DNA from: a virus
Virus record (IMG/VR): IMGVR_UViG_3300018411_000041
Location: 1 to 41,608 of that record
Length of the DNA: 41,608 bases
Reading direction: 5' to 3' (one strand)
The translations under genes and the position numbers were made by a program. The notes beneath the pieces are model-generated. The model did not search any database. It saw only the letters and a list, made by a program, of their open reading frames with translations, and was not told the DNA's origin. Positions 10,769 to 37,655 of this stretch are shown here, one piece after another; the first letter of the stretch is position 1; each line of letters begins with the position of its first letter.

Positions 10769-12922
10769 TTAGTACAACTGTCTTCTAAAGCTTCTCTGTA
10801 TTCTCTTTTCTCTTTTTATATCATCGACCATATGCTCTACCGATATGTTCTTATTGAAGTTAAGTACAAGATCATTCGTGATATACCTTATCTTATTTTC
10901 AAGTTGAGTTGAAACGATATCATCTCTTTCTTTCTTATAGTCTTCTAGTAATTGTATAAGCTCATCTTCTTTTTCTTTTAGTTCACTCTCTTCGTAGTAA
11001 GAATCTGAGTATTTTTCATTTAAGTAAACCTTGTTACTCTTTAGCAGAAGTTGAGTGTTTATGTTATAGTAGTATAGATTCTTTCCATTAAGAAGTAACC
11101 AGTAACTTAATAGACTTGCTATCACTAAGTCATCGTTACCACCTTCGGAGTGATCTATTCTTCCGTTCTTAATTACTAGTCCAAGTATTTGGTGTGAAAG
11201 CTTACTATCGTATAACGATGAAGAGGTATATTTTAACATGTGGTTAAGAGTTGTGCTATAGAGTTCTGATCTTGATGTTATACCAGAACCAGAAGTACTA
11301 AACCCTATGTACTTTCTTAACTTAGTAAAGAGTTCTTCGTTGTAGTAACTTGCTCTCTCTAACTGTTTAAACATATCTTCGTTTTTTTCTCTTTCCTGTA
11401 TAACCATACTAAATAATCTTCTAAAAGGATTAATCTGATGTACTATAAGTTTTTGTATGATGTAATCTATTATAACGCTTGCGCTACTTCTTCGTTCGAT
11501 GATCATTACTAAATTTTCATGTGTAAGTAGAAAGCTTACAAAAAAATCTGCAAGACTAATAAGATTAAGTTCATTAAATACCGCTGTACAAATGACTTCA
11601 CCTGAAGATGAATCGCGTACAACCATAGCTATATCGTCTCTTCCTATGCCTTCTGAAGTATCTATACCAGCTATAAAAGATATACCTTGTGCTTTATATC
11701 GCTCTATAGTTTCTTCAGAAATATACCAGTTAAGTATATAACCGTATGGTTTGTATATCTCTATTCTTGGATTTTCTACTATACTGTTTTTGATACACTC
11801 TATATGTTCTTTTGCTATAGGTGAAGATGAAGTACCTGCCGTCCATCGATTAAACAAATCTCTATCTGCACTTTCACCGTCAGCGATAGTCTCACTTAGT
11901 TTTTCTCTCATCCATTCGTCACTATACCCTAGCTGTCTATAGCTCATGGTGATATTTACTATAGCTTTTTTAGTTTCATTTGATGCTGCTCTACTGTTCT
12001 TATATACAAAATCAACTAGAGAAGCATTGTTTTCAAGATCAAAAAAGTTTTCATTCCATACTGTTGCTGAATTCCATAGTTTATAGATATAAGACGAATC
12101 TCTATCTTCTAGATTTCCTGTAGTAGTTGTAAGTATAGTTCCATATGGCTTATTGTTTTCTTTTGCTGATTCACGTGCGGCGTTACCCGCCATAAGAGCA
12201 GCCGATAAAGCTATAGAAATATTTGGTATAAAACACGCTTCATCAACGTGAAGTATAGGGCTTGTAAAACCTCTACCTACGTTGTTTGCAAGCTTAGGAG
12301 ACATATTTGAAAGGTTTCCCTTATACATGTTTCCTAACTGTTTTAATTGGATCTCTTCTGTGTTAAAGATGTCTTCTCTTGATTTGAAGTTAAGGTATAC
12401 TGGAAGCTCTTCTTGTATCTTCTTGATGCGGTCTAAGTTCTGAGAACGAAGATCATCGGAACGTGTTAACATGTTTATATGTGTGTTTACTGTACCATAA
12501 TTTAACAGGTAGACCATTAACATATCTGTAGAAAACGATTTACCTGTTTGTCGTGGTTGTATAAGTATAGAAGTTATATGATTAAAGAAACTCCAGTATA
12601 GAGCTATGTTTGCTCTATTTGCTTTAAATGGTAGTCCTTCTGTTCCAGCTAAAGGCGGAGCTTTTGCTATTTCTCTAAAGAAGTACCATGGGTTATTTTT
12701 TACTTCATAGAGAATCTTAGTCATCGTATCGATATCTAACTTCTCTACGTCATGAGGATCTACAAACTCTAGTTCTGGTTGAAGTAGAGCAAGATGAAAC
12801 GCGTGATTTACTATACCCATATCTCTATACAGATTTGCTAATCTTAAAAAGTGTTTATTAGGTGTATTTACATGAACTATAGCTGTAGGGTATTTCTTCC
12901 AATCATTTAAAAATAATATCAT
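10769..12922 (-). CDS. terL: Terminase large subunit (DNA packaging ATPase/nuclease)
   Basis: This is the motor that pumps and cuts DNA at the portal during head filling. The 717-residue protein has a Walker A-type QPRQTGKS at residues 122-129 and a Walker B ILHVDEA with D227 and catalytic E228. A coupling-like TTTTGN lies at 265-270. The C-terminal RNase H-fold nuclease has D421 (AGIDTSEG), E476 (MIIERRSS) and D597/D598 (GGNDDLVIA), the usual three acidic clusters. This is the T4 gp17 type layout. The last ~100 residues are charged and look like coiled coil. ATG start is preceded by GGAAAGG. It lies 12 bp after the DNA polymerase fragment, so the two are probably cotranscribed. No small terminase subunit can be named with confidence in the window. 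Confidence 0.92.
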   Translation of the reverse strand: MILFLNDWKKYPTAIVHVNTPNKHFLRLANLYRDMGIVNHAFHLALLQPELEFVDPHDVEKLDIDTMTKILYEVKNNPWYFFREIAKAPPLAGTEGLPFKANRANIALYWSFFNHITSILIQPRQTGKSFSTDMLMVYLLNYGTVNTHINMLTRSDDLRSQNLDRIKKIQEELPVYLNFKSREDIFNTEEIQLKQLGNMYKGNLSNMSPKLANNVGRGFTSPILHVDEACFIPNISIALSAALMAGNAARESAKENNKPYGTILTTTTGNLEDRDSSYIYKLWNSATVWNENFFDLENNASLVDFVYKNSRAASNETKKAIVNITMSYRQLGYSDEWMREKLSETIADGESADRDLFNRWTAGTSSSPIAKEHIECIKNSIVENPRIEIYKPYGYILNWYISEETIERYKAQGISFIAGIDTSEGIGRDDIAMVVRDSSSGEVICTAVFNELNLISLADFFVSFLLTHENLVMIIERRSSASVIIDYIIQKLIVHQINPFRRLFSMVIQEREKNEDMFKQLERASYYNEELFTKLRKYIGFSTSGSGITSRSELYSTTLNHMLKYTSSSLYDSKLSHQILGLVIKNGRIDHSEGGNDDLVIASLLSYWLLLNGKNLYYYNINTQLLLKSNKVYLNEKYSDSYYEESELKEKEDELIQLLEDYKKERDDIVSTQLENKIRYITNDLVLNFNKNISVEHMVDDIKREKRIQRSFRRQLY

Positions 12923-19206: not shown

Positions 19207-19283
19207 CTGTCGATAGCTCAGTTGGATAGAGCAACGGCCTTCTAAGCCGTAGGTCGCTGGTTCGAACCCAGCTCGACAGGCCA
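19207..19283 (+). tRNA. tRNA-Arg (anticodon UCU)
   Basis: A 77-nt cloverleaf. The acceptor CTGTCGA pairs fully with TCGACAG, the D stem is GCTC/GAGC, the anticodon stem ACGGC/GCCGT encloses loop CTTCTAA, and the T stem GCTGG/CCAGC encloses TTCGAAC. CCA is encoded. It reads AGA (and AGG), the main arginine codon in most genes here. Confidence 0.96.
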
Positions 19284-24006: not shown

Positions 24007-24040
24007 CATAGTATCGCGCGCGCGCCCGCGCGGTAGTATG
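24007..24040. other. GC-rich near-palindromic hairpin
   Basis: Bases 24007-24020 can pair with 24027-24040 over 14 positions with one mismatch and one G-T pair, around CGCGCC. The core is alternating CG (24015-24024), striking in such AT-rich DNA. No U-tract follows. Confidence 0.5.
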
Positions 24041-24394: not shown

Positions 24395-24475
24395 GAAGAG
24401 AGAGAGATATCGCTTCGCTCATCTCTCTCTCTTTCTTCCTTCCATCCTTCCCCCCCTTTCCCCCCTTCCTCAGAG
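24395..24475. other. Purine/pyrimidine hairpin and polypyrimidine tract
   Basis: A GA-rich arm (24395-24408) pairs with a TC-rich arm (from 24421) over about 13 bp. It continues into a nearly pure C/T stretch to about 24470 that includes two C6 runs. The complementary strand therefore carries two G6 runs. Confidence 0.5.
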
Positions 24476-24620
24476 AGTTTCACAGTATGTATTTTTGATA
24501 AAAAATCAATATGGTAGTAAATCTTATATGTAAAAAGTAGCTATTGGGTAACTTTATAACACCATATATTGTACTTGTAGCATACTACACCCGTTCCATC
24601 TATTCGTGAAAGAATACACC

Positions 24621-25607
24621 ATGCATGTCGTAGAGAAAAGCTTCGTTGAACAACTGAAAGTTATCGATCAGCACAGCTCTTTTAAATCAAGATACAAAAA
24701 CATCAACGTGATGTGTTCAGGCGGAGTAGACTCTATGGTTCTACTTCACCTGCTATACAAATATAAGAAAGAGTACGGGTTAGCCATCAACGTCATACAT
24801 GTGCTTTTTGATGATGTAGTTAACTTTAAAGAAGTTGATGATCTTATCTACGATACTACATACAAGTTTCACATCTCATATACCAAGTACCTGGTTAACT
24901 CAAACAACAAACCAATCAAGAAGACAGAAGCAAGAGCTTTATTAAAGGAATACGGAACTATAACGAGTTCTGACGCTATCTTTACAGCTCATCACGCTTC
25001 TGATCAAGCAGAGACTATTCTATACAGAATCTTTGCAGGTAGAACCGGTATAGAAGGACTAAAAGGTATGGATGTTATCTGTCCTTACATTACACCAAAA
25101 GGTACATTCACATATATCAAACCTTTACTTCAAGTAACTAAAGATCAAATCTACGACTATGCAAAAACACATAAGGTAAAATACATAGAAGATCTAAGTA
25201 ATCTCGATACAGACTTCTCTGATAGAAACTTCATTCGACATAGAGTTATTCCTCTACTTGAAGAGAGGTTTAACATTAGTCAAATGGTAAGAGGATTACA
25301 TGTGATTCAAAAGTCATATGTAGACGCTATGAAAACTGATGAAGTAAGTATCGAGTATACTGAAAAAGGGTGGAAATTTGAAGAGATGCATAAACTTACT
25401 GAAGAACAAAAATTGTTCCTAGTAAAGAGTAAGATTAAAGAAGAGTTCGGTATCGCTATCTCGAAAAGAAACATCGACTTCCTCAAGGTAAGGTTAGCAG
25501 ATAAAATCAACTGTGACTTTATTCTACTAAGAAGGAAGTCAGGAACACTTCGATTTAAACAAACTAAAGACTACGTTCAGGCTTATATTCTAGAACATAA
25601 AGAGTAA
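24621..25607 (+). CDS. tilS: tRNA(Ile)-lysidine synthase
   Basis: It attaches lysine to C34 of tRNA-Ile2(CAU), changing its reading from AUG to AUA and its charging from Met to Ile. The PP-loop SGGVDSM lies at residues 33-39. TAHHASDQAETILYRI and GRTGIEGLKGM match the TilS-specific 'a.a.Hh.dDq.ET.l.rl.rGtg..Gl.gm'. RNFIRHRVIPLL matches the family 'R...R..ilP.L'. At 328 residues it is shorter than E. coli TilS (about 430) and has only a small C-terminal part. I chose ATG 24621 (GAAAGAA upstream) over GTG 24606, which has no ribosome site. A tRNA(CAU) gene lies 11.5 kb away at 37099. A U-tract terminator follows. Confidence 0.9.
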   Translation: MHVVEKSFVEQLKVIDQHSSFKSRYKNINVMCSGGVDSMVLLHLLYKYKKEYGLAINVIHVLFDDVVNFKEVDDLIYDTTYKFHISYTKYLVNSNNKPIKKTEARALLKEYGTITSSDAIFTAHHASDQAETILYRIFAGRTGIEGLKGMDVICPYITPKGTFTYIKPLLQVTKDQIYDYAKTHKVKYIEDLSNLDTDFSDRNFIRHRVIPLLEERFNISQMVRGLHVIQKSYVDAMKTDEVSIEYTEKGWKFEEMHKLTEEQKLFLVKSKIKEEFGIAISKRNIDFLKVRLADKINCDFILLRRKSGTLRFKQTKDYVQAYILEHKE

Positions 25608-25618
25608 GATAGAACCTA

Positions 25619-25653
25619 CGCCACCTATACCTATTTTACGGGTATAGGTGGTG
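25619..25653 (+). terminator. Intrinsic terminator after tilS
   Basis: The core stem is 25621-25631 with 25641-25651, extendable by two pairs, followed by TTTTTGTTTTG. Confidence 0.85.
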
Positions 25654-25706
25654 TTTTTGTTTTGTAAATTTGTTCTAAATGTTATAACTACTACTGTAAA
25701 AAGGTC

Positions 25707-26096
25707 ATGAACAGTTATTCGAGGAAGATCAACATCAGTAATATCTATAAAGAGCTAAGTAGTAGTTATGCTGCTTATAGTTACTTTGTGAATATATTTA
25801 ATAATCTGCTTATAGATGTAGCTATCAATCACTCATATATTACGAGAACAAACAACTTTGCTTTTGATGATGTAGGTCTACAGCAGTTGTTTCTACATAA
25901 GAAACTTCACACTACTGAAAACTACATAAGTTTCTTTAGTAGTATACAGTCAAGAGAACATCTATCTGTAGCTCTAGACGTGTATACAGAACTTTCAGAC
26001 TTTATAAGTATGTACTATAGAGCAAATAAGGTAAACGTATTTAGCTTATCGATAAGAAAAGCGGATACGCTTGAGATAATTCTTAAACATTTTTAA
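25707..26096 (+). CDS. Unknown protein (129 residues)
   Basis: Tyr/Asn/Ser-rich soluble protein of unknown family. AAAAGG precedes the ATG. It is the first of five closely packed + genes up to 28035 that look like one operon in the baseplate-spike neighbourhood. No motif seen. Confidence 0.7.
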   Translation: MNSYSRKINISNIYKELSSSYAAYSYFVNIFNNLLIDVAINHSYITRTNNFAFDDVGLQQLFLHKKLHTTENYISFFSSIQSREHLSVALDVYTELSDFISMYYRANKVNVFSLSIRKADTLEIILKHF

Positions 26097-26116
26097 GAAA
26101 GCAAACCCATCGCATC

Positions 26117-26536
26117 ATGAGTACAATTCTGATTTCGTTAGAAGATCTTAAGATCTATACCGTAGAAGATTTTATTCGATTCCAAAAAACGCTTGAGCTC
26201 TTTATAATTAGTGACATACAAAAGTGTTTATTTGACGAAGGGCTAAATGATATCTATAGCGGTTACATATATCTAAACGGAAACAACATACCGTTAGAGC
26301 ATGTGGATATAATGAATACTTCTATGTACTTTGAGGTATCCACGTATAGTGTAGATACACTTGCAACTATACAACTTGATCTATACAAATATGTAAAGAA
26401 CACTATAGTAAAGTATCACATAAACAACATAAACAAAAGAGTAAAAAGAGTATTGTGGTTCTCGTGTATGATAGTTGAAAGAACTATCTGTTTTACCTAT
26501 AAGGAGCTTAGTACGAATGAATATACACATTTTTGA
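26117..26536 (+). CDS. Unknown protein (139 residues)
   Basis: Second gene of the five-gene cluster, 20 bp after the first. No recognised motif. The C-terminus overlaps the next gene's start by 20 bp. The codon for its Met start has only a weak AAGAAAG upstream. Confidence 0.65.
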   Translation: MSTILISLEDLKIYTVEDFIRFQKTLELFIISDIQKCLFDEGLNDIYSGYIYLNGNNIPLEHVDIMNTSMYFEVSTYSVDTLATIQLDLYKYVKNTIVKYHINNINKRVKRVLWFSCMIVERTICFTYKELSTNEYTHF

Positions 26537-27122
26537 CACGCAAAGTACAGTAGTGGAATTATTCCTCCTATTTAGACGCCTGTATATTTCCGATAACATC
26601 TATATGGTGCATACAAATACATACAAACGCACTATAGAGTATCTAGAACAGATAGAAGAACAAAAGGTTCTAACTTACGAAAATCCAGAAGACTATAAGG
26701 ATGTAATGAGTACAGGAAACAAATTCGATAGAGCTCTTATTGAAATATCTGTTAAGTGTGTGCTAAGAACTGTATTTTATAACATTCGAGCGTATACTGT
26801 AAATAACTTTATAAAGCTTCTTGACGAAGACATCAGTATAGCAAATCTCTGCTATCTTGAAAATTCAGATATTGATACCTTGTTCGATGATTTTACAAAT
26901 CTTACCGAAGAACAGAAAAACTATCTAAGGTATAATGTATCTTATATAGCTAGAACATACATAGAACACACGTATAATCTTGCAAGACAAGAGTTTGTAA
27001 CGTTGCTTATGACGCTATTTAGTGAAATAGCAAATCAAGCAAATAATCCAGATAGTAGAGTTGGTCGTATAGAGTTATACGGAAAACTTCTACACCCACT
27101 TCTTATAGAAAGCTCCGTGTGA
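26517..27122 (+). CDS. Unknown protein (201 residues)
   Basis: The frame opens earlier, at 26475, but ATG 26517 has AAGGAG about 10 nt upstream and is preferred, giving a protein starting MNIHIFDTQ. It is Tyr/Asn/Leu-rich, mostly helical in appearance, with no membrane segment or motif. It ends in a 4-bp GTGA overlap with the next gene, a sign of translational coupling. Confidence 0.7.
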   Translation: MNIHIFDTQSTVVELFLLFRRLYISDNIYMVHTNTYKRTIEYLEQIEEQKVLTYENPEDYKDVMSTGNKFDRALIEISVKCVLRTVFYNIRAYTVNNFIKLLDEDISIANLCYLENSDIDTLFDDFTNLTEEQKNYLRYNVSYIARTYIEHTYNLARQEFVTLLMTLFSEIANQANNPDSRVGRIELYGKLLHPLLIESSV

Positions 27123-27667
27123 GTACGGCGTCACCATACGTGTTTAGATCTCTTGTAGTTTCAGAAGAGTATCTTCGTTCTACTGTAAGAGATGTAATTC
27201 ACGATACACCTCATATACAGGTTATCATAGATAGCTTTATACAAAAAGACTATGGAAGCTATATTAACTTTATAGACTTCTTAATAAGAAACTTCTCAAA
27301 CAACATAAGTAATGTAACTATAACTGAACCGACATCTGTTAAGTACCAAAATGTCTGTGGGTTATTTAAGCATAGCGAAATATACGAAATCAACTACTAT
27401 GACTTTATGTTTGCAAGTTTTTCAGACATGAGGTATACTGTGCTTAACGCAGACTTTTACGACATAACATACGATGCTCTTAGCGGTTATGGTGTAGATA
27501 ACGATACTATAGAACAAGTATTAGATACTCTTGACATACTGTATAAGTACGTAGAGAACTATTTATACTATGCAGCTTTGTCGATATTCTCTCAAGATGA
27601 GCAGGATATATACTTAGTTCCAGTAAAAATACCAGAACGAAAACTTCTCTTCATTAAGTTTATATAA
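27119..27667 (+). CDS. Unknown protein (182 residues)
   Basis: It starts with GTG inside the GTGA overlap with the previous gene; no strong separate ribosome site, so it is probably made by coupled re-initiation. Tyr- and Asp-rich acidic protein without a recognised motif. Confidence 0.7.
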   Translation: MSTASPYVFRSLVVSEEYLRSTVRDVIHDTPHIQVIIDSFIQKDYGSYINFIDFLIRNFSNNISNVTITEPTSVKYQNVCGLFKHSEIYEINYYDFMFASFSDMRYTVLNADFYDITYDALSGYGVDNDTIEQVLDTLDILYKYVENYLYYAALSIFSQDEQDIYLVPVKIPERKLLFIKFI

Positions 27668-27669
27668 AC

Positions 27670-28035
27670 ATGAACGCTTCGCCAGACAACATACTTGTTC
27701 GAATCAAGAACAAACTTATGTTAAAACTCAATATAGATTCTTATAAGCTGAAATATCTTATAAGTTCCTTTGTATCAGCTGCATTTAAAGGTGTGACTGG
27801 TTCAAAGATGCATTATACAGTTATCAATCTCACAAACGAACTTACTAACGCACAGATGACTATAAAGGTCTTCTTTAAGTTCCTTAATATCATACGCGCA
27901 AAAAAGATCATACTCACAGTAACTGTAATTACAAGAGACGATAAAGAAGTTTCTGTCTCTGAAGAAATCTTGATCGGAGGATTATTGGCGTTAGAGGAAG
28001 AAGATGCCAGTAATAAAGCTTCTACTGAAAAGTAA
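27670..28035 (+). CDS. Unknown protein (121 residues), last of the cluster
   Basis: Two bases after the previous stop. Lys-rich in its first half and acidic at its C-terminus (GLLALEEEDASN). A strong terminator follows at 28041. Function unknown. Confidence 0.7.
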   Translation: MNASPDNILVRIKNKLMLKLNIDSYKLKYLISSFVSAAFKGVTGSKMHYTVINLTNELTNAQMTIKVFFKFLNIIRAKKIILTVTVITRDDKEVSVSEEILIGGLLALEEEDASNKASTEK

Positions 28036-28040
28036 CATTA

Positions 28041-28091
28041 CCAACCAGCAGACCCATATATCGGGATCTGCTGGTTGGTGTTTTTTTTTTT
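28041..28091 (+). terminator. Strong intrinsic terminator
   Basis: CCAACCAGCAGA (28041-28052) pairs with TCTGCTGGTTGG (28067-28078), extended by CCC/GGG inside with a bulged A. GTG and a long T run (about 28081-28091) follow. The T run overlaps the stop codon of the - strand gene. Confidence 0.9.
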
Positions 28092-28341
28092 ACAGTTGCT
28101 TACATGTTGAGGGTATATATACACTAGAACTCTCTTTTAAAAGAGCACACTTATCTTCTACAATATAATACATCTCTACTACAGTAGAAACAAAGTATAA
28201 GTTAAGAATTACCGAAAATATCAGTAATAGAGTAACAGCTAACGATATACTACTAAAGTATCTACTTTTATAGTTAAACTTATCCTTCTTAAGCAACACA
28301 TTAAATACAAATGTTTCAATTAAAATAAACAAGAAATGCAT
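28090..28341 (-). CDS. Small membrane protein (83 residues)
   Basis: The best start is ATG 28341 (MHFLFILIE) with AAGGAA 8 nt upstream; the longer frame to 28386 lacks one. There are two hydrophobic segments: residues ~1-17 (MHFLFILIETFVFNVLL) and ~31-52 (SLAVTLLLIFSVILNLYFV). A Lys-rich turn lies between, so it is probably an inner-membrane protein. It is the only - gene among + neighbours. A lysis-related role (holin or spanin part) or superinfection control is possible but not shown. Confidence 0.6.
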   Translation of the reverse strand: MHFLFILIETFVFNVLLKKDKFNYKSRYFSSISLAVTLLLIFSVILNLYFVSTVVEMYYIVEDKCALLKESSSVYIPSTCKQL

Positions 28342-28370
28342 ATAGTCTTTTCCTTCCCTTAAAGTACTTA

Positions 28371-28393
28371 AGGAATAATTTGGCACTATTCCT
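28371..28393. promoter_or_regulatory. Small inverted repeat in a divergent gap
   Basis: AGGAATA pairs with TATTCCT around a 9-nt loop, between the starts of the - membrane protein and a + gene. Possibly an operator; weak. Confidence 0.2.
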
Positions 28394-28429
28394 AGTCAGA
28401 GCATTCTTACTTTAAAGGCACTTTTAATC

Positions 28430-29752
28430 ATGAAACTTATAAAAGCTTTCTGTACTAACGATAAGTTTATTGACAATAACCTAAACACCGTAGCACCTAT
28501 ATTTGAAATATCTGATCTCTCTTTAACCTTTGCAAAGCATAAGCAAACGTTTACATTTACAGAAGATAGATCGTACTCTCTTATACTTTTTCACGTAGAG
28601 AACGGAACAACTCTTTCTCCTTCTGAAAGTGAAACTATATTTTCAGTAGTAACTGAATTTAACACCCTACTTACTACTGCTTCTATAACAAACAAATCAC
28701 AGCTTATACAGATGTTTATAAGCGGATTTAATCGTACAAGAACAGTAGGTCAATTGACTTCATTTAACTATAACACAACTATCGAGTACTTAGGAACAAG
28801 AACATCAGATTCTATATCTTTTCGTATAGATAACACGTTTGAAGCTTATGTGTGGTTAGCTGATTCGTACTTTAGGAACTTTTACCCTAACTACGAGATA
28901 GACCTTATTTTACCAGTAGAAAACTTTTCTACACTTATAAATCGTCCAGCTGAGTTCGTTCAAGCTTTAGATAACTTCAGTATCATAGAGTTCAACACAC
29001 GAATAGAACAAGCAAAGAACTTCACTATAAACACAATCACCATTATACTTGAAATACCGTATAAGATACCAAATACCTCTATCTTTAAAAAAGCTTACTT
29101 TGCTTTTAACATATACGGACAACAAGGTAACTACGAGTTCATACTTCGACTTAAGCTATTTGACCACCTAGTAAATAACTTAAACCTAAGAGAAGACTTT
29201 GTAGAAACTATATTTCCTTCTATACTTAACATCAACGAGTTCTTTGTTATTCCAAGATGGGATAATATCGCTATACCAAGTTTTGTAGGAAGAAGTGCAA
29301 TCAACTCACAAGTACAAAGAACGTTTAGAGACGATATCGATATACAAAAGTTTATACCAAATATACAAGACATTATCTTTTTAAGGAACAATACAAATAG
29401 TGTACCTATAGATTATAATAACCTTATGCTACATATAGTTAACGGGTACTATAGTGAAGAACACTTAAGAGACTTTAGAGCTCTTTATAGTGATATTATA
29501 ACTGTATTTTCTAAACATCCAGACTTTAATAGAATGTCAAGAGAAACACAACACATACTTACTTTACTTGAAAATGCACTTGTAGTTTCAGACGTAGATA
29601 ACTCCATAGAACTTCTAAATAACATCATAGCAAATACTAACTTTAACTTTAGAGTACTAAGAAGAATGAATGTAGAATATCTCACTATCTTTAACGATAA
29701 GCATCAGTTCTATATTTTACCAAAATACGAATTGTTTAAGTTAAACCACTAA
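28430..29752 (+). CDS. Unknown 440-residue protein, probable virion/baseplate component
   Basis: Phe/Asn/Thr-rich with alternating hydrophobic stretches that look like beta structure, no membrane segment and no enzyme motif. AAAGG precedes the ATG. It is followed 13 bp later by another unknown gene, then the baseplate spike on the opposite strand. The structural role is inferred from composition and location only. Confidence 0.75.
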   Translation: MKLIKAFCTNDKFIDNNLNTVAPIFEISDLSLTFAKHKQTFTFTEDRSYSLILFHVENGTTLSPSESETIFSVVTEFNTLLTTASITNKSQLIQMFISGFNRTRTVGQLTSFNYNTTIEYLGTRTSDSISFRIDNTFEAYVWLADSYFRNFYPNYEIDLILPVENFSTLINRPAEFVQALDNFSIIEFNTRIEQAKNFTINTITIILEIPYKIPNTSIFKKAYFAFNIYGQQGNYEFILRLKLFDHLVNNLNLREDFVETIFPSILNINEFFVIPRWDNIAIPSFVGRSAINSQVQRTFRDDIDIQKFIPNIQDIIFLRNNTNSVPIDYNNLMLHIVNGYYSEEHLRDFRALYSDIITVFSKHPDFNRMSRETQHILTLLENALVVSDVDNSIELLNNIIANTNFNFRVLRRMNVEYLTIFNDKHQFYILPKYELFKLNH

Positions 29753-29765
29753 TAGGAAAAAGATC

Positions 29766-30392
29766 ATGGTACCTATAACGGTCGAAGCACCCTTTTTAGG
29801 GTTTACTTCCTACTTCTATTTTAAAGAACCCTTTAATAGATATATAGAGAATACATATAACTTTAGATCAAATCGCTATAAACTAAAAGTAGTAAGCATC
29901 ATCTCTATACGCGATATGATCAAAAACGATCATAGAGACGCATTTACACACATCTACGATCCTGCTGGTGTAGACGAAGTTGACTACACTCAAGATCTTG
30001 CAGATAACATACCTATACTATCCCTTTCATTTTATAACGAAAGAGATCTAGAAGTTATCTTTAGAGTACCTCTTAACTACGTAGAACATATAGAAAGCTT
30101 AGACGTAGTTGAGTACGTAAATAAGCTTATAGTTATAGATCTAAATCGAAGACATGTAGACTTTGATCTAAGTCTACACTTTAATGAACTTACAGAGTTT
30201 ATACGAGATAGATACGGAGTTACTCCAGATATAAAAGAAGTTAGCATAGGTAACATTGAGCTTATAACTAACGATGAACACAATATACGAGAAACCATAC
30301 GTAAGAATCTTACACTAGTGCGTAAGACCATCTATACTCGTTTTAGAGAGCTTGAATTATTATACAACAGCTTAATCAACAGAACACCTTAA
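29766..30392 (+). CDS. Unknown 208-residue protein
   Basis: Soluble, Asp/Arg/Tyr-rich, ending in a helical Arg-rich tail. AGGAAAAAG precedes the ATG. It shares a transcript with the 440-residue gene. A baseplate role is possible by location; no motif identified. Confidence 0.7.
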   Translation: MVPITVEAPFLGFTSYFYFKEPFNRYIENTYNFRSNRYKLKVVSIISIRDMIKNDHRDAFTHIYDPAGVDEVDYTQDLADNIPILSLSFYNERDLEVIFRVPLNYVEHIESLDVVEYVNKLIVIDLNRRHVDFDLSLHFNELTEFIRDRYGVTPDIKEVSIGNIELITNDEHNIRETIRKNLTLVRKTIYTRFRELELLYNSLINRTP

Positions 30393-30399
30393 AAAACGT

Positions 30400-30437
30400 C
30401 TCTACTCCTTCTTGACCTAAATCAAGAAGGAGTAGAG
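30400..30437. terminator. Convergent-junction hairpin, 16-bp stem
   Basis: Bases 30400-30415 pair with 30422-30437 around CCTAAA, between the 208-residue gene (+) and the spike gene (-). Going leftward it is followed, after ACG, by U6; going rightward there is no U-tract. Confidence 0.75.
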
Positions 30438-30444
30438 TACACAC

Positions 30445-31242
30445 TCACCTACATGGACACCCTATAACAGGATTACCGGTAACGCTACCTGCTGCTGAAA
30501 CATTTCCACTTACAGATACACTTCCTGCCGCTGAAACATTTCCACCAGAAGACATACCGCCTTTTACAGTTAAATCACCAGTAATAGTAACATTTCCGTT
30601 TAATGTTATATTTGGAGAATTTACAGTAGTAGAATTTACCGTAGTTACTACAGCCGAATTTGAACTACTGTCTAAAACTATAGAGTTACCTTTTGAATCC
30701 TTTATAGTAACATTTCCTGCTTTAGTATTTACTTCTATATCATACTTACAATGTTCACCATCGTTATCACTTGTATGTAGCTTTACTTGTTTACCTCTAG
30801 TGTCAAATAAAGACCAATAACTTGTAGTTAAGTTATAAGAAGAACCAAAAGCTTTTACATTCGAATAACTACTTAATACAGTCTCTTGTTTACGTAAAGA
30901 TGGTTCTCTAAATAAAGATGTCCAGTAATACTCTTCAACATTTGCAAATTTAAAGACTATAACTGTTTCATTTGCATAGACATCTGGAGCAGTAGTTCTA
31001 TTACTATCAGCTAGAGGTAACCACTTAGCTGATAAGTAATTTGAAGAAGCTATTTCAGCACTAAATCCTTGATTATCTATATTTTTAGTAGTAGAAGTAT
31101 AGGTCTGTGAACTTTCAGCTATACTTCCACTTGGCTGTATACTCATACTCTCTATAGGACAAATAATAGCTTCGTCACTTCCCGGTACTTTATCCCTTAC
31201 TACTATACCTATAGAGTATAGCTTTAGGTTACTCTCATTCAT
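30445..31242 (-). CDS. Baseplate central spike protein (gpV/gp5 C-terminal type)
   Basis: The membrane-piercing tip of a contractile tail. Of its 265 residues, the first ~40 (LYSIGIVVRDKVPGSDEAI...PIE) resemble the N-terminus of jumbo-phage spike proteins. KLHTSDNDGEHCKYDIEVN then GNVTIKDSKGNSIVLDSS begins the triple-stranded beta-helix. It continues as short repeats (NITLNGNVTITGDLTVKGG, then GNVSAAGSVS twice). The end, NPVIGCPCR, has two Cys that could bind metal or a PAAR-type cap. It overlaps the upstream gene by 4 bp (ATGA) with GGAAG nearby, so the two are coupled. Confidence 0.72.
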   Translation of the reverse strand: MNESNLKLYSIGIVVRDKVPGSDEAIICPIESMSIQPSGSIAESSQTYTSTTKNIDNQGFSAEIASSNYLSAKWLPLADSNRTTAPDVYANETVIVFKFANVEEYYWTSLFREPSLRKQETVLSSYSNVKAFGSSYNLTTSYWSLFDTRGKQVKLHTSDNDGEHCKYDIEVNTKAGNVTIKDSKGNSIVLDSSSNSAVVTTVNSTTVNSPNITLNGNVTITGDLTVKGGMSSGGNVSAAGSVSVSGNVSAAGSVTGNPVIGCPCR

Positions 31243-31640
31243 AGCTCTTCCTTCTTAAAAATGTAGTCAAAGGTATTCAGTATCTCTTCTATATCCTTTT
31301 TTGCTTCTATATTAATTTCATTAGTAGAAGTCACTTCATATATTCTTACTAAAAATACGTTAAGGTTTATATCTCCACGTACAGACTTAAAGAACTTCTC
31401 TATAGATACAGCTGACACTATACCTGAAGTTTTCTTACTTAACAATCTATCTAACAAATAGTTAAAGTCTTCGTTGTAAACATTGAGTATAATTAATCTG
31501 TTAAGACTATTCATAGCAGTATGGTTAAGATCTATTCGTTCTTTATACTCATTTATACGTTCACATAGGTATTCGTTAAAAGTCAACTCTTCAGTTACTT
31601 TAGGTATAGAGGTAAATAGTTTTTTTAAATATTCGAACAT
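31239..31640 (-). CDS. Unknown protein coupled to the spike, possible baseplate component
   Basis: A 133-residue protein with AAGGATA before its ATG, ending in a 4-bp overlap with the spike gene. Helical, with the segment VSIEKFFKSVRGDINLNVF followed by acidic residues. A gp25-like wedge role would fit the position, but the diagnostic residues were not found, so it is left unnamed. Confidence 0.65.
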   Translation of the reverse strand: MFEYLKKLFTSIPKVTEELTFNEYLCERINEYKERIDLNHTAMNSLNRLIILNVYNEDFNYLLDRLLSKKTSGIVSAVSIEKFFKSVRGDINLNVFLVRIYEVTSTNEINIEAKKDIEEILNTFDYIFKKEEL

Positions 31641-31710
31641 ACGATGGTATCCTTCTTTGTACTAACCAAACTACAAAATTTTCTGAATAAGTTTTTTTTA
31701 AAAGGTATTT

Positions 31711-32028
31711 ATGATGTCAGACACTCAAGACGTAAACTTAACTGTTGAAGTTATAAGACTACTTAGACAACAAGAAGTATCAGAGAACATTATACACGCT
31801 ATAACTTCTCATAACCAATTTGCTTATGCACAAGATAAGCCGCCACAAGTACAAAGAGCTCTAATCACAAGTATACTCTTTAGACTTCTACTTTCGTTAA
31901 ACGTACCGGTACCAAAAGAGATACGTCTTTCTTTAAATGTAGCTACAAACACCTTAGGATGGTTATCTGATCTAAATCTCGTTATAGTTCCGTTTATTAA
32001 ACTGAATGAACAACATTATAGAGGTTAA
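31711..32028 (+). CDS. Unknown protein (105 residues)
   Basis: It starts at one of two adjacent ATGs (31711 or 31714) with AAAGG upstream. Small, helical, Leu/Arg-rich, with no motif. It is the first gene of a + unit and ends two bases before the RNA polymerase clamp gene. Confidence 0.65.
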   Translation: MMSDTQDVNLTVEVIRLLRQQEVSENIIHAITSHNQFAYAQDKPPQVQRALITSILFRLLLSLNVPVPKEIRLSLNVATNTLGWLSDLNLVIVPFIKLNEQHYRG

Positions 32029-32030
32029 GT

Positions 32031-32696
32031 ATGCCAAATAGAAAGAATGCAGAAGAGTATATACTTACATTAATGAAAGACCTTGATTCTACCGGGTACA
32101 ACACACAAAAGTATCTAGAGATATTTAAAGAAATGTCAGATACAGACTTTCATAACTATATGCTAAAGCTTCAGAATAAACAAGCTAAACTTGTATTCTT
32201 TGCGCCACATAATCAGGATATAAGACTTACTACCGAAAAGCTTCTTGTAATTGGTCAGAAATATAACGTAGAGTTTTTTGAGTACCTAAACTTTACTGAA
32301 AATAAAGATACTCCAGATCATAAAACACCTATTAAGTATATGGTAGTTGATCTACCCTATAAACGACAGTCTCAAAATCTAGTTAAGAAAATCTCTATAC
32401 CAGAACACAACAAGACTATAGATTACTTAACCTATCAACCAACAGGTGATAGTAAAGGTGCTCGTATTTCTTATCCTGAACTTCAACTACTATTGGGGTT
32501 AGGATTAGAAAGAAGTCTAGACGAGATGGTAAGATTTAGAGGTGGTGATAAAAATGGATTTGCAGCATATAACTCTATGTTTCTAAGATACGGAAATGCA
32601 AACATAAAAACACTTAATAATTACTCATCAGGAGTTGAATCAACTAAAAGTCTAAAAGTATACCTAACTTCCATGCATATATCAAATACTATCTAG
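32031..32696 (+). CDS. RNA polymerase beta subunit C-terminal (clamp) fragment
   Basis: A 221-residue protein. Its second half matches the RpoB C-terminus. YQPTGDSKGARISYPELQ (residues ~135-152) corresponds to 'QQPLGGKaqfGGQRfGEmE'. LLGLGLERSLDEMVRFRGGD (~154-173) corresponds to 'AleAYGAAytLqEmLTvKSDD', followed by NG and a Tyr as in 'vnGR.k.Y'. This is exactly the part missing from the beta-like protein at 109-4446. The first ~100 residues (LDSTGYNTQKYLEIFKEMSD) are not recognised. Start ATG with AGAGG 6 nt upstream. It lies among structural-type genes, not next to the other polymerase genes. Confidence 0.72.
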   Translation: MPNRKNAEEYILTLMKDLDSTGYNTQKYLEIFKEMSDTDFHNYMLKLQNKQAKLVFFAPHNQDIRLTTEKLLVIGQKYNVEFFEYLNFTENKDTPDHKTPIKYMVVDLPYKRQSQNLVKKISIPEHNKTIDYLTYQPTGDSKGARISYPELQLLLGLGLERSLDEMVRFRGGDKNGFAAYNSMFLRYGNANIKTLNNYSSGVESTKSLKVYLTSMHISNTI

Positions 32697-32698
32697 CC

Positions 32699-33439
32699 AT
32701 GGAAACAGCAAAAATTTACGTAGATCTAAATTCACTTTTTGATACGAGACAAGGAGCTTTGAGCTCTTTACTAAAGGCAAAAGAGTTAGCAGACCTTATC
32801 TCGTCTGAAGCATACAACTTTAGAACTATAGACGAGTTTTCTATAGATATGGAGAAGTTTAAAGAACACTATACAAAGTTCTCACTCTCTTCTTTTAAAA
32901 TGTCAAGCATTACGTATATAGTAAACGTTATACAGCATAAGTTTAAAGCTATAGAAAATAAGAACGCGTATACAAACGAATCAAAAAGACCAGAGCTTAT
33001 ATTAAACACCTACCCTCTGGTCTTTACTGAAAGAGATGCAGAACTAATAAAAGACCTACTCTTTATAAAAATGAAGCTAAAAGTATACATATCTATAATA
33101 TCGCAACCTATAACAGAAATCTCTCCGTCCTTTATTAAGAATACAAACACTAACTTTGTATTTATTTACGAGTTTAAAGAATGGATAGACACACATTTAA
33201 TGCATTTACAACTTACACCGCTAAAAGACACAGTCTTCTTCTTTCCAAGTAAGTACTATAAACAACCTACTAAAGAAGAGCTTGAAGGTCTAAAGAAAAA
33301 AGGATACGAAGATCCGTTTTCCTTTATGGAGCTTATCGTATCTGAGTATACAAAGTTTCAATTTCTTCCTATATTCTTTTACTCAAATTTAATTACTGCT
33401 ACTTCATATACAGAACTTTTCGCTATAGAATACAAATAG
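32699..33439 (+). CDS. Unknown protein (246 residues)
   Basis: It begins two bases after the clamp-fragment stop, with no clear own ribosome site, so it is probably coupled. Soluble, Lys/Phe/Thr-rich, no motif. Located between the clamp fragment and a hydrophobic structural-type protein. Confidence 0.7.
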   Translation: METAKIYVDLNSLFDTRQGALSSLLKAKELADLISSEAYNFRTIDEFSIDMEKFKEHYTKFSLSSFKMSSITYIVNVIQHKFKAIENKNAYTNESKRPELILNTYPLVFTERDAELIKDLLFIKMKLKVYISIISQPITEISPSFIKNTNTNFVFIYEFKEWIDTHLMHLQLTPLKDTVFFFPSKYYKQPTKEELEGLKKKGYEDPFSFMELIVSEYTKFQFLPIFFYSNLITATSYTELFAIEYK

Positions 33440-33475
33440 CTTTGACTTAACCATTTAAACAAGAAAGGTAAAAAC

Positions 33476-34693
33476 ATGGCCATAGCTGCACAACGGTTTA
33501 GATTTCTTGATCAAGAAACAAACGTACCTATCGTAGACTTTAATAAGATATCAGATAACTTTGCTTACAATATACCAGAAGAAACACTAACTGAATTACA
33601 ACAAGTTACTAACGAAGATGCAAAAGAAGTACTTAACAAACTTCAAGCAAATCTACAGAGCGTAACAGAACAACTTAACGAGTTTCCATCTAAACTTAAC
33701 GAAGAGATTAATAACGCGCTCTCCTCTATAAGAAATTTAGATCTTCCAACCACTATAAGAGATGCATTAAACTCTCTAACTGATCTTGATCTAGATGGAC
33801 TAAAAGGGTTTATAAAAAACGCACTTAATCTAGGTAAAGCAGTTCTATGCGGTAACCTAGGTTTTCTAAAATTATTTCTTCTAGGCTTTAGCTTAAACAA
33901 AAACATACTTTCAGGTTTACTTATAGCTCTACTTCTATCGTGGTTAGATCGCATATGTTCTTCTCAAGTAACACCTCAATCAAGACAAAAATCTACTCGT
34001 AGAGAACTTACACATACTCTTTTTCCATATAAACAGAATATTCATAACGATAACGCATTTAGACTAATGCAGACATATCACGCAGACCATATACGTAAAT
34101 CAAGAGCATTACCACCGCCAAGACCTTTCGATACAACAAACTTCCTTAGCTCTATAGTAAACGTAAATACGCGACAAGTAAGGCTTTCAGTACAAGATCT
34201 AATTAAAGACGAACTTCCACCTATCACAAGAGAAAATATAAGAAGAGAAATATCTTCAAGTTTAAGAACAACTACAAGAGGTTCACAACAACACTCAAAT
34301 CTTCTTATAGCAAGAAGAGAACTAAATAGACTTCCACCAGTCTCTCCAGAACGTATAAGAAATGAAAGACGCTATAGACATCTTCCAGAAAAACTCGGCC
34401 ATACACTAGTAAATCTACCAAACGTAGAACTTAGAATAAATACTCCAATAGGTAGTGCCCCTAATCCTATACAGATAAGTCTATATAATAAATATCAAAA
34501 TCTAAGAGACTCTCTTCAAACAAGAGAATTTAGACCAGTACCAGGTGAATTTGGTACATTTAGACACCATAACTTTACTCAAACTCTTCCAGCGCTTACG
34601 CCAGAAGAAGAACAATACCTTCTAAACGAAAAACTTAATTCAGACTCTCATAGATGGAGAGATTTACATCCTACATCAGAGGTATTCATATGA
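33476..34693 (+). CDS. Unknown 405-residue protein with hydrophobic centre and Arg-rich C-terminal half
   Basis: Residues ~40-120 look like coiled coil (LNKLQANLQSVTEQLNEF then NALSSIRNLDL). A hydrophobic stretch at ~118-160 contains GFLKLFLLGFSLN and SGLLIALLLSWLDRIC. The remaining 240 residues are rich in Arg, Pro and Ser. This coiled-coil plus hydrophobic patch layout suggests a membrane-interacting virion or tail-tip protein, but nothing proves it. AGAAAGG precedes the ATG. It ends in a 4-bp ATGA overlap with the next gene. Confidence 0.75.
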   Translation: MAIAAQRFRFLDQETNVPIVDFNKISDNFAYNIPEETLTELQQVTNEDAKEVLNKLQANLQSVTEQLNEFPSKLNEEINNALSSIRNLDLPTTIRDALNSLTDLDLDGLKGFIKNALNLGKAVLCGNLGFLKLFLLGFSLNKNILSGLLIALLLSWLDRICSSQVTPQSRQKSTRRELTHTLFPYKQNIHNDNAFRLMQTYHADHIRKSRALPPPRPFDTTNFLSSIVNVNTRQVRLSVQDLIKDELPPITRENIRREISSSLRTTTRGSQQHSNLLIARRELNRLPPVSPERIRNERRYRHLPEKLGHTLVNLPNVELRINTPIGSAPNPIQISLYNKYQNLRDSLQTREFRPVPGEFGTFRHHNFTQTLPALTPEEEQYLLNEKLNSDSHRWRDLHPTSEVFI

Positions 34694-34929
34694 CATCAAA
34701 TAAACTAAATGACTTTCTAGCTCTTCTTCCTATAGAAGCTCTCTCACGTCTACAACTTGAACCACACAAAATAGCCCTCTATACAACTCTTGATTCCGTA
34801 GATGTTCTAAATACATTTTCAGAAGAGATAAATACACCTACTCTTACATATGAAAAATGTATGTACATAGCAGCAAAACACCCTATACAGCCACTAAAAA
34901 CATATAATGATCTTCTTACCTGTAAGTAA
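34690..34929 (+). CDS. Small unknown protein (79 residues)
   Basis: The frame extends up to 34654, but ATG 34690 forms the classical ATGA overlap with the previous stop and has AGAGG just upstream, so it is preferred (MTSNKLNDFLALLP). No motif. Confidence 0.65.
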   Translation: MTSNKLNDFLALLPIEALSRLQLEPHKIALYTTLDSVDVLNTFSEEINTPTLTYEKCMYIAAKHPIQPLKTYNDLLTCK

Positions 34930-34966
34930 CACGTAACGACTACTTCTTACAGTAGTCGTTACGTGT
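34929..34966. terminator. Convergent-junction hairpin, 16-bp perfect stem
   Basis: Bases 34929-34944 pair with 34951-34966 around TCTTAC, between the 79-residue gene (+) and a - strand gene. No U-tract on either side. Confidence 0.7.
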
Positions 34967-34972
34967 ACTAAT

Positions 34973-35356
34973 TCACCCAGTAAAGTCTTTTATATTTATC
35001 TCATCTATACCCACTAACTTCTCGTCCTTATTTACTTCATAAGAAACAGAAGTAGGTAAACTTACGTCCTTATCCTCAACTAAAGATACTTCAGAAGACT
35101 TTTTATGCATAATCATAATCATCTCCTTCAACGCTTCCTTAGTCTCTTCCATATTCTTATTCTCAACATCCTTAACCTTAATCTTCACTTTTCCAAGTAC
35201 GCTTCTGTCCATGCTCTCAAGTAAGTTAGTTACAGCTAAAATATCCTTCTCGTTCTCAGGTAACTTTCGAGTAAGTAGATTATCTACTATTCTCTCACGT
35301 ATCTGCATCGTTTTTTCAAGTATACGCTTATCTTCAGATGAAAATAACTTCGACAT
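34973..35356 (-). CDS. Small helical protein (127 residues), function unknown
   Basis: AAGGAG precedes the ATG. The first ~65 residues are helical, with RERIVDNLLTRKLPENEKDILAVTNLLESMDRSVLGK seen as two amphipathic helices (split here only by naming). The second half is charged and Val/Asp-rich. Similar short helical proteins in large phages are sometimes packaging-related (small terminase-like), but there is no diagnostic motif. It is isolated on the - strand. Confidence 0.65.
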   Translation of the reverse strand: MSKLFSSEDKRILEKTMQIRERIVDNLLTRKLPENEKDILAVTNLLESMDRSVLGKVKIKVKDVENKNMEETKEALKEMIMIMHKKSSEVSLVEDKDVSLPTSVSYEVNKDEKLVGIDEINIKDFTG

Positions 35357-35414
35357 ATAGTCTTCTCCTTATATAAAAGTACAGTCACTGTATTTCCTAT
35401 ACACACAAGTACTT

Positions 35415-35443
35415 TTGATTTTTTAAACTTTAGCACATAGAAT
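35415..35443 (+). promoter_or_regulatory. Possible promoter before the RecA-like gene
   Basis: TTGATT (35415-35420) and TAGAAT (35438-35443) are 17 bp apart and lie 30 bp before the start codon. The block GATTTTTTAAACTT recurs at 39403-39416 before another + gene. Confidence 0.4.
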
Positions 35444-35473
35444 GACTTCAAACGCTATAAGGAAATATATAAT

Positions 35474-36928
35474 ATGTTAAATGATCTCTTCAAAATAAAA
35501 CCAAACTTTAAGGAAGTAGAACCAGTTAAACTCTACTACAACGTAGGTTGTCTACTCGATATACCTACAGGAACATATATTAAAGGTCAAAAAGGTGAAA
35601 ATATACTTAACGGTGGATTAGGTGTACTTACAGCTATAGCAGGTAAAGGTAATACTTTTAAATCTACTCTAGCTCATTACATGATGTTATCGGCAGTAAG
35701 TAAAGTCATATCTTCCGGAACAGGAACATATATCAATACTTACGATACAGAAATGAATATACACATCGATCGTCTAAAAACATTTGCATCAAACTTTCCA
35801 GAGTTTAAGAATAACGATATCATTCAATCAGGCATGTGGAATATTACTGACAAGACACTTCATACAGGTAATGAGTGGTACAAAATACTTAAAGAGTTCC
35901 TAAGAAACGAAAAGCTTAAGAACAGATCAGGATACGTATTTGAAACACCTATAATGGGTGCAGACGGAAAAACTATTAAAACTCTGTTTCCTACCTTTGG
36001 TGAAATAGATAGTATATCAGAGTTTGATACAGCAGATACAGAAGAAATGCAAAATAAGAACGAGTTAGGTGAAAGTGGGGGTAACACCATACACATGAGA
36101 TTAGGTCTAGCTAAAACAAGACTTCTTATGGAACTTCCAGGTCTATGTAACTCAGCAGCACACTACATGCTACTGACTGCACATCTTGGAACAGAAATAC
36201 CTATGCAACAAGGTCCGTATGCCGTACCTACTAAAAAACTTCAACACCTTAAAATGGGTGATAAGATCAAAGGCGTAACAGATAAGTTCTTCTTTCTACC
36301 AAATATTTTCTGGCAGACAGTTAATTCATCGTTACTCATTAATCAAAATACCAAAGGACCAGAGTACCCAAAGACTCGTGATAAAGTCGATGAAGGTTCT
36401 ACTGATCTAAACATAGTCACTATACGTCAACTAAGAAACAAAGCAGGTCCATCAGGTATAACACTTGAAATCATTATCTCTCAGACAGAAGGCGTACTTC
36501 CTTCTCTAACAGAGTTTCACTTTATCAAAGAGAATGAAAGATATGGACTTGAAGGAAACAACACGCAGTACAACCTTGTACTCTATCCCCAAGTAAAACT
36601 TTCAAGAACTACAGTAAGAAGTCAGATAGACTCTGATCCTCTTCTAAGAAAAGCTATTAAGTTTACAGCTGATCTACTTCAGATTAAGCAGGTGTATAAA
36701 ACACTCGACATGGAGATTCCTTCATTGAAGACTCTCTATGAAAAATTAAATAATAAATATGACTTTAATATATTGTTGAACACACGCGATTTTTGGACAT
36801 TTAATAACTATGAACATTCTGTACCTTTTCTATCAGCCTTTGATCTGTTAGAGATGTACTATGATAAATATGAACCGTATTGGTTAAATAAGACACCTTC
36901 TACTACTAGTAAGAAAAAGGTAGTTTGA
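35474..36928 (+). CDS. RecA-like/UvsX-type recombination ATPase with unusual P-loop
   Basis: A 484-residue protein. Residues ~48-70 read GGLGVLTAIAGKGNTFKST, matching a RecA/DnaB-type Walker A but with Phe where the invariant Gly before Lys is expected (GKGNTFKS). YINTYDTEMN follows the P-loop at the position of the 'yiDtE' strand of RecA proteins. HYMLLTAHLG and LNIVTIRQLRNKAGPSG resemble the strand and DNA-loop region. Such enzymes pair homologous DNA during phage recombination, together with the gp46-like ATPase. A DnaB-like helicase is the alternative. ATG start with AAGGAAA; a weak terminator and two tRNAs follow. Confidence 0.6.
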   Translation: MLNDLFKIKPNFKEVEPVKLYYNVGCLLDIPTGTYIKGQKGENILNGGLGVLTAIAGKGNTFKSTLAHYMMLSAVSKVISSGTGTYINTYDTEMNIHIDRLKTFASNFPEFKNNDIIQSGMWNITDKTLHTGNEWYKILKEFLRNEKLKNRSGYVFETPIMGADGKTIKTLFPTFGEIDSISEFDTADTEEMQNKNELGESGGNTIHMRLGLAKTRLLMELPGLCNSAAHYMLLTAHLGTEIPMQQGPYAVPTKKLQHLKMGDKIKGVTDKFFFLPNIFWQTVNSSLLINQNTKGPEYPKTRDKVDEGSTDLNIVTIRQLRNKAGPSGITLEIIISQTEGVLPSLTEFHFIKENERYGLEGNNTQYNLVLYPQVKLSRTTVRSQIDSDPLLRKAIKFTADLLQIKQVYKTLDMEIPSLKTLYEKLNNKYDFNILLNTRDFWTFNNYEHSVPFLSAFDLLEMYYDKYEPYWLNKTPSTTSKKKVV

Positions 36929-36961
36929 CTGCTATATAACTCTATATATATTTACTGAACT

Positions 36962-36984
36962 AGCTTATACAAATAAGCTTTTTA
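36962..36984 (+). terminator. Weak intrinsic terminator
   Basis: AGCTTAT (36962-36968) pairs with ATAAGCT (36973-36979) around ACAA, followed by T-rich TTTTAA. It sits between the RecA-like gene and the tRNA pair. Confidence 0.5.
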
Positions 36985-36991
36985 ATACAGA

Positions 36992-37078
36992 GCCGCTGTG
37001 ATGAAATTGGTAACCATAGAAGACTTAAAATCTTTCGGCGTAAAAGCCTTGCCGGTTCGAGTCCGGCCAGCGGTACCA
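36992..37078 (+). tRNA. tRNA-Leu (anticodon UAA)
   Basis: An 87-nt class II tRNA. The acceptor GCCGCTG pairs with CAGCGGT, the anticodon stem GAAGA/TCTTT encloses CTTAAAA, and a variable arm (TCGGCG...AAGCC region) and T stem GCCGG/CCGGC around TTCGAGT follow. CCA is encoded. It reads UUA. Confidence 0.95.
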
Positions 37079-37098
37079 TCTAACGTTAGTAAAAAAAA

Positions 37099-37175
37099 GG
37101 GGGGTTAGCTCAGTTGGTCAGAGCGAAGAACTCATAATTCTTGGGTCGCTGGTTCGAACCCAGCACTCCCCACCA
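37099..37175 (+). tRNA. tRNA with CAU anticodon (probable tRNA-Ile2, else Met)
   Basis: 77 nt. The acceptor GGGGGGT pairs with ACTCCCC (one G-T), the D stem is GCTC/GAGC, the anticodon stem AAGAA/TTCTT encloses CTCATAA, and the T stem is GCTGG/CCAGC. CCA is encoded. CAU can mean Met or, after lysidine modification, Ile reading AUA. The phage carries tilS and uses ATA codons heavily, which favours Ile2; identity elements cannot be settled by eye. Confidence 0.93.
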
Positions 37176-37202: not shown

Positions 37203-37655
37203 ATGACCTCTTTAGCAGTATCGTCTAAAGACGATCTAATGCTTCCCCTAATCTTTGAAGCTCTTCAAGAGTTTCATGCTCTAAGGAACTTTATTGAGAC
37301 AAGACAAGTCAACACAGCAAATATCTTCACACCCGTGTATCTAAATACACTTGCTACCGAGATTGAAACACATAAAGCTTTTGTAGAGGAATGTATCGCG
37401 TTTCTAGATATCGTAAACCTATACAGTTTCATGGTATATGATTCAGAAGAAAAGTTTGTAACTGGAATTAAAAAACTTATTCTATCTAGTCGGTTAGTTA
37501 AGCATACAAGTTTACAGCTTAATGTAACCGGTATGGATGAGTATGTTTTTGAAGAAAGACAGAGTGGGTTAGACTTTATTGAGTCAAATTCTACTCTTCT
37601 TAGTGTTTTCATAGCCTGTCTGGTTGTGAAAATATTCACCGCTGATAAGCGGTAA
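37203..37655 (+). CDS. Unknown protein (150 residues)
   Basis: It starts 28 bp after the tRNA pair with AAGGAAA upstream. Helical, Leu/Phe/Val-rich, ending in a short hydrophobic stretch (LLSVFIACLVVKIF) that could be a C-terminal membrane anchor. No recognised family. Confidence 0.7.
   Translation: MTSLAVSSKDDLMLPLIFEALQEFHALRNFIETRQVNTANIFTPVYLNTLATEIETHKAFVEECIAFLDIVNLYSFMVYDSEEKFVTGIKKLILSSRLVKHTSLQLNVTGMDEYVFEERQSGLDFIESNSTLLSVFIACLVVKIFTADKR

Follow-up and report, generated by a model that had tools for sequence, protein, structure and literature searches.

A phage-encoded tRNA(Ile) lysidine synthetase and a candidate tRNA-Ile2 in an AUA-rich phiKZ-like genome fragment

IMG/VR record IMGVR_UViG_3300018411_000041 (class, virus), analysed here over its whole length of 41,608 bases and called the window below, derives from a phiKZ-like jumbo phage and carries tilS, the gene for tRNA(Ile) lysidine synthetase, together with a tRNA of anticodon CAU, tRNAs for AGA and UUA, and genes rich in the Ile codon AUA. 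As long as its CAU anticodon is unmodified, tRNA-Ile2 accepts Met and decodes AUG, and addition of lysine to C34 by TilS leads to charging with Ile and reading of AUA (PMC11938285). It is probable that the phage makes its own TilS and thereby obtains enough tRNA-Ile2 with lysidine at C34 for translating its AUA-rich genes. Support for this comes from the family to which the enzyme belongs, the set of tRNAs, the load of AUA codons, a link between tilS and CAU tRNAs in other phages, and avoidance of AUA in phage tilS genes; the activity, substrate and timing of the enzyme we infer. Of the AUA decoding kit proposed in the initial annotation, a decoding set for AU-rich codons is supported, because a real TilS was found in an AUA-rich phage along with tRNAs for AGA and UUA, both A-ending codons preferred here; the CAU tRNA, assigned there as tRNA-Ile2, is treated here as a candidate tRNA-Ile2 and a possible TilS substrate.

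In the proposed mechanism, a load of 44 AUA per 1000 codons would sharply raise the demand for tRNA-Ile2. The AUA-poor tilS gene would be translated first, using tRNAs already present, and its product would join lysine to C34 of the host tRNA-Ile2 and possibly of the phage CAU tRNA or of another tRNA encoded outside the sequenced fragment. The additional TilS, alone or together with a phage tRNA-Ile2, would meet the demand, and the lysidine-bearing tRNA-Ile2, charged with Ile and reading AUA, would allow the AUA-rich genes to be translated at speed.

The protein predicted from tilS scored 118.1 bits against the TIGR02432 equivalog model (cut-off 93.6) and matched PF01171 (E 5e-31), with a catalytic domain and one further domain after it. 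An AlphaFold model (43 sequences; mean predicted local distance difference test score 80, predicted template modelling score 0.80) had only TilS structures, from E. coli, Aquifex and Geobacillus, among its six top PDB matches (template modelling scores 0.60–0.70), and the matches included 1ni5 (E 1.9e-16), 2e21, 1wy5 and 3a2k. Family score and fold thus confirmed the earlier identification of a phage lysidine synthase. The reading frame was intact, SGGVDS, D128/E131 of the HxxDxxET motif and the RNxIRxxVIP segment were kept, and S33–S38, D128, E131, R202, N203 and R206 were invariant across 43 sequences. The TilS_C domain (CTD2, PF11734), which is present in E. coli TilS and marks type I enzymes, was absent, and the window TilS therefore resembles type II TilS. 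Host contamination as the origin of the gene was ruled out, since tilS is flanked by phiKZ-type genes. It is the first gene of a rightward run, downstream of a 1-kb non-coding stretch, and looks from its surroundings like a single-gene unit (Table 1). That stretch (23556–24605, about 1 kb in which no gene is convincing) separates divergent gene runs; near 24023 it has a GC-alternating run, and it also holds direct repeats of 28 nt and 70 nt, 215 nt apart.

AUA made up 549 of the 1039 Ile codons (53%) in 35 window genes, and at least half of them in 21 of the 35, which bears out the earlier statement that most genes use it heavily; the fraction ranged from 0 to 81% from gene to gene, with AUA-poor exceptions (0–18%), tilS among them. 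AGA accounted for 63% of Arg codons, UUA for 30% of Leu codons and AUG for 1.6% of all codons. Codon usage was compared across 61 phiKZ-like loci, the window included, none of them shorter than 12 kb. The AUA fraction minus the expectation from composition was +0.09 in the window and averaged −0.14 (standard deviation 0.07) in the other 60, so that the window stands far above its phiKZ-like relatives and is second only to L234 (IMGVR_UViG_3300026484_000105, 110 kb), in which AUA was 53% of Ile codons, on par with the window; in phiKZ it was 14%. Other window genes nearly free of AUA were found at 20826–21500 (1 of 14 Ile codons), 37203–37655 (2 of 11), 37690–38403 (0 of 15) and 39476–40000 (1 of 21), and these are possibly early or highly expressed.

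Avoidance of AUA was a general feature of phage tilS genes. With simple gene calling and related loci that are not fully independent, the AUA fraction of tilS lay below that of its neighbours in 26 of 27 phage loci (48 observed against 117.3 expected); the ratio was 0.40 (50 against 123.8) when open reading frames of at least 100 amino acids were used, and relative to genes conserved between loci it was 0.39 (P 4e-5). Ratios for AGA, UUA, GUA and ACA were 0.86–1.05, and GCA was likewise unchanged. In 57 bacterial loci the AUA ratio of tilS was 1.5, similar to that of AGA (1.56), and the avoidance therefore does not stem from the TilS protein itself. The window gene had AUA at 4 of 29 Ile codons (P 1.4e-5 against neighbours) and AGA at 9 of 14 Arg codons, as elsewhere in the window. 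Five of 37 other gene families had AUA ratios just as low, so that scarcity of AUA by itself does not set tilS apart. General translational optimisation was rejected as the cause, since the other AUA-poor families also avoid AGA and mostly UUA, whereas tilS does not. Because phage tilS genes avoid AUA and only AUA, the reading of this codon is suggested to be limiting until phage TilS is made. The pattern fits a start-up constraint, in which the gene that unlocks AUA cannot itself depend on AUA.

Searches of IMG/VR with single proteins (window RNA polymerase, window TilS) returned no relatives, and alignments were required. In a scan of IMG/VR 49 TilS loci were found, on contigs marked as phage by families adjoining tilS (for example RIIA, topoisomerase, tail fibre and tyrosyl-tRNA synthetase); many TilS matches on unannotated records of the phage collection, several of them probably bacterial, were left out. 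In all six lineages with a tRNA within 300 bp of tilS, the nearest tRNA had anticodon CAU. The nearest tRNA was CAU in 9 of 21 loci, against 5.1 expected from the tRNA content of each locus (P 0.008) and 2.8 from the pooled content (P 0.0009). Most CAU tRNAs of TilS phages preferred the Ile2 model; those of L017 and the window did not. Two tRNAs of phage PA5oct (L004; 5559–5632 and 6040–6113) are annotated as tRNA-Met and score as Ile2-type, and a third CAU tRNA (8168–8241) is initiator-like. Among side observations, a 270-kb record (IMGVR_UViG_3300023283_000076; L014 and L018) has two short tilS genes with their own CAU tRNAs 1.6 and 3.3 kb away, and in a 359-kb viral contig (L013) a tyrosyl-tRNA synthetase gene (11261–12508) directly follows a long-form tilS, making up a translation-gene island. 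tRNAs of anticodon CUA lie near tilS in L032, L033, L035 and L036 (12439–12512) and in L058 (9192–9269), which suggests that those phages may translate amber codons as an amino acid.

In a tree of 89 TilS sequences, 35 short phage forms, that of PA5oct included, made up one group (support 100), L013 and L055 were placed apart among bacteria, and the window and L012 attached near proteobacterial TilS, the window on a long branch (2.17) whose placement is unsure. Because the tree holds separate phage placements, tilS was probably acquired by phages more than once, and the window gene looks like an acquisition separate from the short-form clade.

Several findings weigh against the proposed role and are given here together with the explanations that they favour. 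Many TilS phages use AUA less than composition predicts. No TilS match was found in any of 43 phiKZ-like contigs searched, nor by a family-model search of eight of these, FLC9 and phiKZ, in which positive controls were recovered; L234 is thus AUA-rich with no TilS found in its sequenced part. Several phiKZ-like contigs without TilS carry CAU tRNAs, at least two of them clearly Ile2-type, and the phiKZ-like phage PA7 has a textbook tRNA-Ile2 and no TilS. Since L234 is AUA-rich without a TilS found, and PA7-type phages have tRNA-Ile2 without one, TilS is not required for an AUA strategy. In the window, 11.5 kb separate tilS from the CAU tRNA, and the two form no cassette.

The identity of the CAU tRNA is the point most directly contested. 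ARAGORN and Rfam agreed with the earlier reading of its anticodon and of the AGA and UUA tRNAs; the tRNA-Arg lies outside the interval 24621–37175 given in the initial annotation. The reference sets were 33 Ile2 and 29 elongator Met tRNAs from E. coli and up to 37 named bacterial genomes, with labels assigned in this analysis and anchored on E. coli ileX/ileY and metT/metU. The window tRNA has the Ile2 features C32, A37, A38 and A73. It has G4:C69 and G5:U68 in place of C4:G69 and C5:G68, the identity pairs of E. coli TilS (PMC12514573), which were found in 30 of 33 (4:69) and 33 of 33 (5:68) bacterial Ile2 tRNAs; neither of its pairs, nor its A30:U40, occurred in any of the 33. With 1:72 paired (G1:C72) and an anticodon stem (AAGAA/UUCUU) without three G:C pairs, it is, judged by these positions, not an initiator Met tRNA. 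A pair-based position weight matrix (leave-one-out) gave at most −2.3 for Met and at least 11.4 for Ile2 tRNAs, and −7.0 for the window tRNA. Isotype covariance models gave 77.8 bits for Ile2 and 82.6 for elongator Met; the corresponding scores were 95.2/80.4 for ileX, 82.0/96.1 for metT, 58.7/55.6 for the tRNA-Ile of T4 and 100.7/84.5 for a PA7-like phage. The isotype comparison suggested in the initial annotation therefore leans to elongator Met by 4.8 bits, against about 14 bits in a clear case (E. coli metT), and yields neither a clear Ile2 nor a clear Met. A Pseudarthrobacter plasmid holds a sequence close to the body of this tRNA (94.8% over 58 bases); the match was discarded, as it belongs to a plasmid tRNA array, has a different acceptor stem and is of no known identity.

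These scores, the missing identity pairs and the lack of linkage to tilS favour an elongator Met tRNA unrelated to TilS, the enzyme, if active, serving host tRNA-Ile2 or a phage tRNA-Ile2 elsewhere in the genome. This explanation, which differs from the proposed mechanism on the tRNA and shares with it the role of TilS, is a serious contender to which we give somewhat less than an even chance. Against it, G3:C70 and U7:A66 of the window tRNA occurred in none of the 29 bacterial elongator Met tRNAs, which have C3:G70 (27) or U3:A70 (2), and a Met tRNA would bring no codon-usage benefit, AUG being so infrequent. In addition, the tRNA adjoining tilS in L017 scores similarly Met-like, from which it follows that bacterial models do not carry over cleanly to phage tRNAs. 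If the phage does use its own TilS to supply tRNA-Ile2, we lean slightly towards the window CAU tRNA as one of its substrates. CTD2 of type I TilS contacts the tRNA acceptor stem (PMC12514573). In a stronger version of the mechanism, which we hold to be rather unlikely, AUA would be nearly unreadable early, the near-AUA-free tilS would act as a self-starting switch, TilS without CTD2 would modify a phage CAU tRNA that host TilS ignores for want of C4:G69 and C5:G68, and expression of AUA-rich genes would wait on phage TilS.

That the AUA richness is a mere effect of AT-rich base composition, and TilS a passenger or decaying gene without effect, is unlikely. Third-base composition at four-fold sites predicts about 45% AUA, so that the observed 53% is a moderate excess, and relatives of similar AT content (L228, L229, L238 and L240) mostly lie under the expectation, whereas the window lies above it. 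The long branch of the window TilS and the replacement of the ExxARxxRY arginine pair by L107 and E110 would suit a decaying gene; the pair is no published criterion of the TilS family and was flagged for its conservation (kept in 88 of 88 other sequences). The replacements might impair the enzyme and are the sole sequence feature against normal activity. Compensating frameshifts were ruled out as their cause, since the other two frames near codons 91–130 contain stops and no RY motif. The intact frame, the kept motifs and the avoidance of AUA that the gene shares with other phage tilS genes argue against decay.

A role in counter-defence, with TilS and the tRNAs replacing or re-marking tRNAs that the host destroys or alters and not serving codon matching, appears very unlikely, even though phage tRNAs are reported, in works cited by PMC12482277 and PMC13191261, to offset host tRNA degradation and to evade tRNA-cutting defences. 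Among the window proteins scanned, none was recognised as a tRNA repair enzyme such as a ligase or kinase, and the AUA-specific avoidance in tilS points to AUA decoding. We know of no tRNA-cutting nuclease that targets CAU tRNAs. A role of TilS in keeping the host cell viable while a long infection lasts, which has been proposed for phage MIJ3 (PMC6892783), would suit the essentiality of tilS in bacteria. It is most improbable, since the host almost certainly has TilS already, and both the AUA richness and the link between tilS and CAU tRNAs would be left unexplained.

The window RNA polymerase beta subunit, terminase, DNA polymerase, RNase H-like and baseplate proteins matched phage families. 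A phiKZ-type terminase, a multisubunit RNA polymerase and a DNA polymerase were present, as in phiKZ-like jumbo phages, which were the best named relatives of the RNA polymerase beta subunit and the terminase; by terminase the closest named phage was Burkholderia phage FLC9 (44% identity). Since phiKZ-like genomes are usually about 230–325 kb, the window is a genome fragment, and the tRNA list of this phage is therefore incomplete. The large subunit of ribonucleotide reductase (4507–8223, + strand) holds an intein-like insert (PF14890, amino acids 325–554, below cut-off).

Table 1. Positions of the principal features in the window.
Feature	Coordinates	Strand	Basis and remarks
RNA polymerase beta subunit, phiKZ-like type	109..4446	-	phrog_3148, 1113 bits; AUA 69% of Ile codons
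Terminase large subunit	10769..12922	-	37-44% identity to FLC9, PhiPA3, phiKZ; phrog_2
tRNA-Arg (UCU), reads AGA	19207..19283	+	ARAGORN, Rfam
tilS, tRNA(Ile) lysidine synthetase	24621..25607 (ATG); alternative GTG start 24606	+	328-333 amino acids; TIGR02432, PF01171
Strong terminator-like hairpin (intrinsic type)	25618..25654	+	15 pairs then T run; directly after tilS
tRNA-Leu (UAA), reads UUA	36992..37078	+	ARAGORN, Rfam
tRNA with anticodon CAU, candidate tRNA-Ile2	37099..37175	+	ARAGORN, Rfam; CCA encoded

If the proposed mechanism is true, some phages alter how their tRNAs are read, and not just which tRNAs they bring, by means of their own modifying enzyme. AUA-specific avoidance in phage tilS would then serve as a simple mark, visible in the genome, of translation being limited by lysidine formation in infection, and the long-standing question of what phages gain from tRNAs and tRNA-modifying enzymes could be put to direct experiment. 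Phage CAU tRNAs labelled tRNA-Met, such as those of PA5oct, merit re-examination.

The idea of a viral TilS for AUA decoding is not new, being published for chloroviruses, and TilS is known in the Pseudomonas jumbo phages PA5oct and MIJ3; in a limited literature search no earlier account was found of a phiKZ-like phage with TilS, of tilS and tRNA(CAU) recurring side by side in phages, or of viral tilS genes that avoid AUA. Chloroviruses have TilS, a cluster of tRNAs for AU-rich codons and AUA much commoner than in the host (PMC7589089), and the window resembles them in its TilS, its tRNAs for AU-rich codons, its AUA load and the proposed role; they infect green algae, whereas the window comes from a phiKZ-type tailed phage in which TilS and the AUA load are present and the tRNA-Ile2 is a candidate. 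PA5oct and MIJ3 (PMC6892783) likewise combine a jumbo-phage TilS with an AUA-rich genome, but theirs is a short form of about 200 amino acids in a separate clade, and MIJ3 is reported to be without phage-nucleus genes (PMC6892783). In length and fold and in the lack of CTD2, the window enzyme is similar to the type II TilS of Aquifex aeolicus (PDB 1wy5, 2e21 and 2e89; 317 amino acids), at 20–22% identity in structure alignment and with the two near-invariant arginines lost. T4-like phages carry a tRNA-Ile (CAU) of the lysidine type (PMC1524935), and lysidine has been detected in a vibriophage tRNA(CAU) (work cited in PMC13191261); as described, these tRNAs depend on host TilS, whereas the window phage has its own.

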